A DNA stretch of 64,000 nt from Spartobacteria bacterium LR76. GTDB lineage: Bacteria; Verrucomicrobiota; Verrucomicrobiia; Chthoniobacterales; Terrimicrobiaceae. Location of the stretch: positions 1,054,001 through 1,118,000 of the forward strand of contig QAYZ01000016.1 in the NCBI GenBank assembly GCA_003054655.1. Reading direction: 5' to 3'. The translations under genes and the position numbers were made by a program. The notes beneath the pieces are model-generated. The model was not told the origin of the DNA. It saw nothing but the letters and a program-made list of their open reading frames with translations, and made no database searches. Positions 9,722 through 11,438 of this stretch are shown piece by piece (positions within the stretch are counted from its first letter, which is position 1; the number at the start of each line of letters is the position of its first letter).

Positions 9722-10156
9722 ATGAACACGCACCACTGTATCGAAGTCTGCAATCGTTTGCTCCGCGGAGAACAATCCGCCGTCGAGGCCTACACCAAAG
9801 CCATTTCGACGCTTGAGAAGGAGTACGCTGTCCCCAATACTCTCGTCACGGTCCAAAAGGATCACGAGGAAGCAGTCGCCGCGCTGTCCGAGAATGTCCG
9901 CTCCATGGGAGGCACTCCCTCCACCGACGCCGGCGCCTGGGGAGCATTCACCAATTTCGTCCAGGGCACGGCGAACCTGATGGGAGACAAGTCGGCACTG
10001 GCGAGCCTCCGCGCTGGTGAAACCGCAGGAAAAATGGATTACGAAGCAGCGCTCCAGGATGAAGACGTCATGTCGTCCTGCAAGGAATTGATCCGAACGG
10101 AACTCCTCCCGACCACGGAACGACACATCGAAGCCCTCGATACCTTGAGAATCTAG
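9722..10156 (+). CDS. PA2169/DUF2383 family ferritin-like four-helix protein
   Basis: This 144-residue protein starts at MNTHHCIEVCNRLLRGEQSAVEAY. It has the two halves of the DUF2383 family: an N-terminal helical pair with GEQSAVEAYTKAISTLEK, and a C-terminal pair with LRAGETAGKMDYEAAL and LLPTTERHIEALDTL. The Glu/His spacing resembles ferritin-like bundles, but no metal or partner can be shown from the sequence. Proteins of this family are usually general-stress associated. The upstream ATG-like extension (MKRRFPD) is not conserved-looking, so the internal ATG is used. Confidence 0.75.
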   Translation: MNTHHCIEVCNRLLRGEQSAVEAYTKAISTLEKEYAVPNTLVTVQKDHEEAVAALSENVRSMGGTPSTDAGAWGAFTNFVQGTANLMGDKSALASLRAGETAGKMDYEAALQDEDVMSSCKELIRTELLPTTERHIEALDTLRI

Positions 10157-10234
10157 AAGGTACGGAAGGCCGTCTTTACAGGCGCGAGGCGAGCCGATCT
10201 TTCGAGATCGCAAGAATGCGGATTCCCAAACTGA

Positions 10235-10310
10235 CTCCTGAGGTAGGATTCGAACCTACGACCAATCGGTTAATCCCGACAGTTGTCGGGACTCTACCAC
10301 TGAGCTACTC
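10235..10310 (-). pseudogene. Remodelled tRNA-Asn-like copy
   Basis: This is identical to the tRNA-Asn at 10578-10652 over the 39 bases of its 3' part (10235-10273) and 19 bases of its D-arm (10292-10310). The 10 bases of the anticodon-stem region are replaced by the 18-base inverted repeat TCCCGACAGTTGTCGGGA (10274-10291, plus strand). The 5' acceptor strand reads AGCGAG instead of TCCTGAG and cannot close the stem, and the terminal CCA is TCA. It is therefore not a functional tRNA. The stop codon of the GIY-YIG gene lies inside it. Confidence 0.85.
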
Positions 10311-10562
10311 GCTGCAACCAAGAAGCTTCGTCCGAATCATTCGCGCCGACTTCCAGGACTTGATCTGCCGCTCTCGGACCATTGCTGATGACCTTGTCAG
10401 ATGAGACTCCTTCCACACCAACTCCCATGGACCGTTCTTGCGAGTGAACTTCCCTTCACTTACGTCGCAACGGTTGTGGTCGGCAACTCGAGCATCCAAG
10501 CTGGAACTTTGCCCAACGTAAAATTTGCCGTTCGCGTTTCGGAGAAGATAGACCCAATACAT
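10305..10562 (-). CDS. Small stand-alone GIY-YIG nuclease
   Basis: This 85-residue protein is made almost wholly of a GIY-YIG domain: YWVYLLRNANGKFYVGQSSS carries the GIY/YIG strands, DARVADHN the catalytic Arg helix, and VRERQIKSWKS the conserved Glu region. The ATG lies 15 bases downstream of the CCA end of tRNA-Asn. The TAG stop (10305-10307) falls inside the D-arm of the remodelled tRNA-Asn copy. By eye its codons are less GC-rich than those of its neighbours, which suggests acquisition. It could be a homing-type endonuclease; no other mobility gene is present. Confidence 0.85.
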   Translation of the reverse strand: MYWVYLLRNANGKFYVGQSSSLDARVADHNRCDVSEGKFTRKNGPWELVWKESHLTRSSAMVRERQIKSWKSARMIRTKLLGCSE

Positions 10563-10577
10563 GGGTTCTTGAAAAAC

Positions 10578-10652
10578 TGGCTCCTGAGGTAGGATTCGAA
10601 CCTACGACCAATCGGTTAACAGCCGACCGCTCTACCACTGAGCTACTCAGGA
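10578..10652 (-). tRNA. tRNA-Asn (GTT)
   Basis: The minus strand folds as a complete cloverleaf. The acceptor strands are TCCTGAG and CTCAGGA with discriminator G and an encoded CCA (10580-10578). The D-arm is GTAGCTCAGTGGTAGAG, the anticodon loop CTGTTAA with GTT, and the T-arm contains GGTTCGAATCC. A GIY-YIG gene and a damaged second copy follow downstream. Confidence 0.96.
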
Positions 10653-10892
10653 ATTCGTCTTTGAGAGCGGGTAAAGAAACTCTGTCGGGCACCTTCATGC
10701 AAGCTTTTTTGCAAGATTCTCGTCCATGCCGATGGAAAGAGATTCTCTCCGCAAAACTCACCGCTGGCCGTTTTGGGAACTTTCCCGATAAACACTGGAC
10801 AGATGGAAAGGAATTCCTGCCCCTTACCGCAATGAAGCCTTGGTAACTCCAGGCTGGCGAAAATCCGTGAAGTCCCGCTAAAGTCCGCCTCG

Positions 10893-11438
10893 ATGAGCAC
10901 CGCAACTCCCTCCCATCACGGGCACAGCAAAAGCTGGCTGATCTTCTCGGGCATCCTGTCCCTCGTTCTTGGCTTCCTTGCGATTACGTTCCCGTACTTC
11001 TTTTCGCTCATCGTCACCCAGGTCATCGGTATTTTCTGCCTGGTGAGTGGATTCGTTTCCCTCGGTCTGGCCATTTCGGGCAAAAAGCCGGATCACCGGA
11101 TTCTCAATGCCATAGCCGCCCTCATCCGCATCGGAGTGGGCGTCGCCCTGCTGCTTTGCGCAGCCTCGGGAATGAAGATCATCACCCTGATCTTTGCCGT
11201 CTTTCTGATCCTGGAAGGTATCGTCACGACGATCAGCGCCTTCCGCCTCCGCGGGCACGGCGGTTGGGGATTTTTCGTTTTTTCCGGTGTGATCGCGCTC
11301 GTCCTCGGTGTGATGATCTACTTCGAGTGGCCTGCAAACAGCGGCTGGGTGATCGGCACCTTTTACGGGATCAATTCGATCTTCTCCGGTGTCTCGCTCC
11401 TCGGCCTCGGGTTCTCAGCTCCCAAGGCCTCGGCCTGA
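10893..11438 (+). CDS. HdeD family (DUF308) membrane protein
   Basis: This 181-residue protein has six hydrophobic segments arranged as three hairpin repeats (WLIFSGILSLVLGFLAITFP, IIGIFCLVSGF-type and GVIALVLGVMIYFEWP blocks). This matches the HdeD/DUF308 family, named from an E. coli acid-resistance membrane protein. A His-containing soluble N terminus (ATPSHHGHSKS) precedes the first segment. It is encoded alone and converges on the LOG-family gene nine bases away. The molecular function of the family is not well defined; envelope stress is the usual association. Confidence 0.88.
   Translation: MSTATPSHHGHSKSWLIFSGILSLVLGFLAITFPYFFSLIVTQVIGIFCLVSGFVSLGLAISGKKPDHRILNAIAALIRIGVGVALLLCAASGMKIITLIFAVFLILEGIVTTISAFRLRGHGGWGFFVFSGVIALVLGVMIYFEWPANSGWVIGTFYGINSIFSGVSLLGLGFSAPKASA

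Follow-up and report, generated by a model that had tools for sequence, protein, structure and literature searches.

Why should the gene of a small GIY-YIG nuclease lie between an intact tRNA-Asn gene and a remodelled copy of the same tRNA? The question was raised by the window, a stretch of 64,000 nucleotides from Spartobacteria bacterium LR76, in which the following features were found.

10578–10652, minus strand: intact tRNA-Asn(GTT), scored by Rfam as tRNA at 74.5 bits
10563–10577, minus strand: spacer of 15 bases from the CCA of the tRNA to the start codon of the nuclease gene
10305–10562, minus strand: gene for an 85-aa, single-domain GIY-YIG nuclease matching PF01541
10292–10310, minus strand: D-arm piece of the remodelled tRNA-Asn copy, identical to tRNA bases 5–23
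10274–10291, minus strand: 18-bp palindrome TCCCGACAACTGTCGGGA with 8-bp arms, in place of canonical tRNA positions 25–34
10235–10273, minus strand: displaced 3' part of tRNA-Asn, tRNA bases 34–72, identical at 39/39 bases

The coordinates, Rfam and PF01541 agreed with the preliminary description of this DNA, in which a GIY-YIG ORF had been placed 15 bases past the CCA of a tRNA-Asn at 10578–10652. Its further statements, that the gene ends in a second tRNA-Asn-like sequence (10235–10310) and that this copy shares 39 bases of the 3' end and 19 of the D-arm with an 18-base inverted repeat between them, were likewise confirmed. A TAG stop codon was located inside the D-arm of the copy, the two sequences had exactly 19 + 39 bases in common at a spacing of 346 bases, and the inverted repeat was a perfect dyad. 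The 39-base identical block started in the anticodon loop and ended with the discriminator base. The 5' acceptor strand had been described as lost; only tRNA bases 1–4 were missing, and part of the strand survives. The copy was a damaged tRNA by Rfam, with 30.0 bits against a cutoff of 29. Because it keeps tRNA pieces on one side only, the window unit is called the 3' form.

The window tRNA-Asn was the sole tRNA-Asn match across the assembly. The exact palindrome occurred once in the 4.75-Mb genome, as did TCCCGACANNTGTCGGGA, and a looser form of the dyad had a chance expectation of 0.12 occurrences in the window. A chance origin of the arrangement was rejected on the basis of the 58 identical bases, the perfect dyad and recurrence elsewhere, and a REP-like multicopy palindrome was rejected for this genome because the exact palindrome is single copy. 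When positions 9900–11100 were compared with Rfam, the matches were to tRNA only, with no intron or ribozyme family, and a group I intron, whose structure is absent here, was also rejected. A promoter-like site for the nuclease gene was looked for in the window and none was found; therefore, the gene is likely co-transcribed with tRNA-Asn.

The window ORF matched PF01541 (GIY-YIG) with 57.7 bits (cutoff 22.6, E 1.5e-15). Residues Y5, Y15, G17, R25, H29 and E64 were invariant in an alignment of 11 relatives, and the conserved Tyr, Tyr-x-Gly, Arg and Glu of the superfamily are all present. Judged from its sequence, the protein is catalytic-looking, with the GIY-YIG catalytic residues intact. Its predicted structure (pLDDT 82) gave UPF0213 and SLX1-type chains as the best matches, and the nearest phage family in PHROGs was named homing endonuclease. 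Compared with the L039 relative, dN was 0.29 and dS was 2.6, a saturated value; since dN is far below dS, the sequences fit purifying selection. The 85-aa protein lacks a separate DNA-binding domain. Its ORF is free-standing, outside any intron or intein, as in free-standing homing endonucleases of the SegB type, and it is the only one in the unit, so that the integrase characteristic of a tRNA island is absent. The PADLOC defence models gave zero matches to the window unit, and a known anti-phage defence system was rejected for it on that ground.

To place the unit among its homologues, loci were collected from 58 relatives and 289 genomes of the same phylum, from 247 genomes of the phylum of a deltaproteobacterial MAG, and, as a third set, from 118 genomes of the phylum of a Zixibacteria MAG. 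Among the 129 loci of the first two sets with an upstream stretch available, a same-strand tRNA or tmRNA lay within 250 bp upstream of the nuclease gene in 66 and at 250–500 bp in 6 more, with 0 in farther bins; the searches were seeded with tRNA-linked proteins, and these rates are valid for that part of the family rather than for all GIY-YIG genes. The third phylum showed a tRNA within 250 bp on either side in 22 of 30 loci, and the nuclease gene often preceded the intact tRNA. Fourteen tRNA identities were represented (Asn, Met, Pro, Ser, Asp, Ala, Arg, Gly, Lys, Gln, Leu, Cys, Val and Thr). The Met-linked units involved both initiator and elongator tRNA, and tmRNA was linked as well. Homologous elements are thus present in at least three bacterial phyla. 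Searches of plasmid and phage records returned distant relatives only, and in a rough comparison six such distant GIY-YIG genes had no tRNA nearby.

Several loci showed further arrangements. GIY-YIG genes were found near tmRNA genes at L023, L047 and L135, and tmRNA may be a further target of these units. Six GIY-YIG genes with no tRNA link (L017, L018, L028, L030, L032 and L034) had inverted copies of an interspersed repeat on both sides, TCATCCTGAGC...GAAGGACC, resembling terminal inverted repeats. At L134, the palindromes ATTCCCGC...GCGGGAAT stood on either side of the GIY-YIG gene.

The nuclease tree was compared with the identities of the linked tRNAs. For the first set, tRNA identity needed 28 changes on the tree versus 52.7 when shuffled; for 89 proteins from three phyla, the values were 30 and 60.3. 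With about 80 alignment columns and many weak forks, the tree allows this clustering to be claimed only as a whole. Asp-linked and Asn-linked proteins from different phyla clustered together. The nuclease lineage therefore tracks tRNA identity across phyla, and the clustering by isotype could be partly due to shared descent.

Homologues at random sites with no tRNA copies had been named in the preliminary description as evidence against its reading; most tRNA-linked homologues were accompanied by pieces of their own neighbouring tRNAs, and their sites were not random. Fragments of the neighbouring tRNA flanked the unit in 50 of the 68 tRNA-linked loci, and no fragment was detected at the threshold used in the other 18. 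The fragments were strongly polar. All upstream fragments reaching a tRNA end were 5' ends (29/29), all downstream ones were 3' ends (44/44), and 108 of 109 tRNA fragments were on the same strand. The exception in polarity was the array L234 in the third phylum. Displaced 5' halves were present upstream in 23 loci. In its full form, the unit consisted of a 5' half, palindrome, spacer, intact tRNA, nuclease gene, palindrome and 3' half, in that order, and shorter forms had the pieces of one flank only. The copies were mostly polar halves without one end, in some cases several per locus. Tandem arrays with three nuclease genes each were found at L050 (tRNA-Ala) and L074 (tRNA-Arg). The loci L046, L145, L220 and L234 consisted of arrays of palindrome-bearing tRNA fragments, in which the nuclease gene was not part of every unit.

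Because the 5' halves lie upstream, the 3' halves downstream and the intact copy between them or at one side, the arrangement points to insertion within the tRNA gene followed by restoration. The simplest reading is that the tRNA gene was split by an insertion that returns the missing half or a whole copy. The unit had been described as a minimal mobile element that inserts next to a tRNA and duplicates part of it. Targeting and partial duplication are strongly supported by the recurrence at many tRNA identities and in three phyla and by same-genus empty sites; the position has to be revised from beside the gene to within its body.

Genomes with and without the unit were then compared at the same locus. 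Two genomes of the window's genus (G001 and G002) contained the orthologous tRNA-Asn with the same upstream region and a tRNA sequence identical to that of the window, and no nuclease unit, which confirms that the arrangement is not a universal feature of related genomes. Downstream of their tRNA-Asn, including the region of the downstream boundary of the window unit, lay other, island-like DNA. In another genus, the same tRNA-Asn locus lacked the unit in G291, contained it in G215 and carried decayed remains of it in G282. The native promoter region in G215 abutted displaced 5' halves, and the intact tRNA stood about 155 bp further on, identical at 75/75 bases to the tRNA of the empty site. 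Polymorphism of presence and absence at the target locus, as expected of a homing endonuclease, was thus seen with G001, G002 and G291. Presence was patchy within genera, and related genomes carried units at different tRNAs.

Other loci bear on the history of the units. At L178 (G282:C38), tRNA-Asn was preceded by the remains of a GIY-YIG gene and followed by a tRNA 3' end with a palindrome; this locus is a decayed element. In L007, L117 and L111 (G006:C22:1862-10074), a nuclease gene or its relic followed an orphan tRNA-Asn 3' end; about 8 kb separated it from the intact tRNA-Asn, which suggests the later entry of an island between the two. A 125-bp inverted-repeat, MITE-like element was scattered over the genome of G227 (L191–L207), with one copy directly upstream of the tRNA-Ala array. 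G093, compared for the tRNA-Ala array L050, had rearranged flanks and yielded no clean empty site.

These results are probably best explained by a homing-type, minimal one-gene mobile element that targets tRNA genes, splitting and restoring them. The target of the nuclease would be a tRNA gene of the matching identity that lacks the unit, with the cut usually falling within the anticodon arm or close to it. Recombination repair through the tRNA halves would then place the nuclease gene inside that tRNA gene. A minimal unit such as that of the window would contribute the missing half and a full-form unit an entire tRNA copy, so that the host would retain a working tRNA. The displaced half would be left behind with a palindrome at its break, and tandem arrays would result from repeated rounds or unequal recombination.

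Several findings count against homing: the protein lacks a DNA-binding domain of its own, 18 tRNA-linked loci show no fragment, the array L234 departs from the polarity rule, and the isotype clustering could in part be a matter of descent. The chief difficulty is that the rebuilt tRNA in occupied genomes has the same sequence as in empty ones. Donor alleles are usually cut poorly by free-standing GIY-YIG enzymes, according to the SegB paper (PMC13096335). Since the rebuilt tRNA equals the tRNA of the empty site, self-cutting must be avoided some other way. The earlier suggestion that the element leaves a target resistant to its own nuclease was accordingly not upheld for the intact tRNA, and only the broken copies differ. 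Most likely, the palindrome is either a site that the enzyme, or its dimer, acts on, or an immune scar, in which the target has been exchanged for a sequence that escapes cutting.

A total of 93 palindrome junctions were recorded in 36 loci. Most breaks were in the anticodon arm, where the palindrome replaces the missing piece, and the break points were typical of the lineage: mostly 24/35 in Asn, 38/47 in initiator Met, and about 27/43, the whole anticodon arm, in Ala, Arg, Lys, elongator Met and Pro. In some copies, palindromes replaced pieces of the D-loop or T-arm, and the T-arm was destroyed in some. The Asn break was identical in two phyla, and the palindromes there differed. Whether homologues share the inverted repeat of the window had been posed as a question; palindromes at the breaks do recur, and their sequences differ between copies.

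The palindrome arms of 13 Asn copies showed 16 two-sided changes versus 1 single-sided change, in copies chosen for at least 5 paired outer bases, so that the paired fraction is partly a product of that choice. Their covariation was far above that of shuffles and slid controls, with one G-U in the stems. Palindrome arms of at least 9 bp were present in 39% of the tRNA-linked loci versus 5% of control stretches. The ends YCC...GGR were found in 46 of 56 distinct junction palindromes across isotypes when up to two extra outer bases were allowed. At the tRNA-Gly loci L215, L224, L228 and L230, the junction dyads were very short, e.g., TCC-N3-GGA, which suggests TCC...GGA as the palindrome core.

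The shared dyad speaks for a rival reading in which the palindrome, and not the tRNA, is the substrate of the nuclease. The enzyme would then be structure-specific in the manner of SLX1 and would mobilise short palindromes, the system would resemble REP/RAYT, and the hairpin arms of tRNA genes would be favoured landing sites. The pieces replaced in the D-loop, anticodon and T-arm are indeed hairpin-forming spots, the nearest solved relatives are SLX1 and UPF0213, and some GIY-YIG loci away from tRNA genes likewise adjoin palindromes or inverted repeats. However, a nuclease lineage that tracks tRNA identity would be needless for a palindrome-only target, the flanking fragments represent halves of the adjacent tRNA in fixed polarity, and the window genome holds its exact palindrome in single copy. 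We consider this explanation unlikely.

The system might instead work at the RNA level, with RNA as the substrate of the nuclease or of the tRNA-like transcript. The remodelled copy would then serve either as a decoy or antitoxin RNA for an anticodon nuclease or as a processing signal in the nuclease mRNA. It still scores as a tRNA, its fold was more stable than shuffles (z -2.5), its hairpin occupies the former place of the anticodon arm and would lengthen the anticodon helix, and the nuclease gene probably shares the tRNA promoter. GIY-YIG enzymes are known as DNA nucleases, however, and the nearly complete two-sidedness of the stem changes, with a single G-U, is as for a DNA palindrome. Furthermore, most copies are one-ended halves and some have lost their T-arm, which indicates that a tRNA-like fold is not conserved. 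A role at the RNA level is accordingly quite improbable.

Copies of tRNA 3' ends are the standard attR of integrated islands, and the window copy could in principle be the attR of a lost tyrosine-recombinase island with the nuclease gene as leftover cargo. The same-genus genomes do contain different DNA right after tRNA-Asn that is apparently recombinase-bearing, as judged by eye from the translated sequence. An island remnant does not account for the recurrence of tRNA, nuclease and palindrome as a unit at many isotypes in three phyla, or for the 5' halves displaced upstream, and to our knowledge attR copies do not have palindromes in the anticodon arm. We regard it as very improbable. A resident nuclease that aids tRNA gene duplication or repair without independent mobility would fit the purifying selection on the protein and its wide distribution, but deserves hardly any credence given the patchiness within genera, the empty orthologous site, the decayed copies and the different tRNAs occupied in related genomes.

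With homing into tRNA genes as the preferred reading, a broader proposal can be made tentatively; we see it as possible, although somewhat short of probable. The units would form a separate class of mobile element in at least three phyla, in which one GIY-YIG nuclease per tRNA identity breaks tRNA genes at their hairpin arms, rebuilds a functional tRNA from the copy it carries and marks the broken arms with an evolving palindrome as part of a transposition or immunity mechanism. The open literature that was searched, in which subscription papers and preprints are incompletely covered, contained no account of GIY-YIG units that are linked to tRNA genes and accompanied by tRNA halves with palindromes. 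If the reading is true, these units are among the smallest autonomous mobile elements known and reside inside essential tRNA genes of many bacteria, with nuclease lineages specialised on single tRNA identities. They would be a natural source of compact, site-specific nucleases whose targets are readable, and would account for false tRNA calls and for tRNA fragments dispersed over genomes. They would also represent a third route, besides splicing and recombinase integration, by which an essential gene is invaded and the host survives. The meaning of the palindrome is a new, testable question.

Known systems resemble the unit in different respects. UPF0213/YhbQ and SLX1 share its single GIY-YIG domain and are the closest solved structures; a term search of a GIY-YIG survey (PMC1564403) gave no link of UPF0213 or SLX1 to tRNA genes or palindromes. 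REP/RAYT systems also link palindromes to a small nuclease, but the RAYT fold is HUH, of the Y1 transposase type, and the fold here is GIY-YIG; the palindrome here is not multicopy and lies within pieces of tRNA. The enzyme fold is shared with those mobile group I introns that have GIY-YIG enzymes, and bacterial group I introns also invade tRNA genes, as stated in the abstract of PMC3984707; the tRNA here owes its restoration to a DNA copy that the element carries rather than to RNA splicing. Tyrosine-recombinase islands and phages likewise target and restore a tRNA gene and leave a displaced piece at the far end, and the window has the corresponding direct repeat of the tRNA 3' end at its far side (39 bases, spacing 346). 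The window unit differs in having no recombinase and one 85-aa nuclease gene within a 346-bp repeat unit. Its break, in the anticodon arm, carries a palindrome, and among the loci displaced 5' halves occur as well.

Among relatives that have been tested, SegB of phages T4 and T6 behaves most similarly; it is a GIY-YIG homing endonuclease whose free-standing gene lies in a cluster of tRNA genes. In the available portions of PMC13096335 and PMC2988022, SegB is described as cutting within tRNA genes at the motif RAWTSGAAC, which we read as the T-loop consensus on the other strand, and its cutting as driving recombination and amplification via short homologies. SegB resembles the window unit as a free-standing GIY-YIG nuclease beside tRNA genes. 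It is a phage protein acting on a tRNA array, whereas the lineages here mostly have one tRNA identity each, and the split tRNA, restored copy and break palindrome are not part of the SegB account in those portions. The units described here are akin to free-standing homing elements, with a fair chance of being a class of their own.
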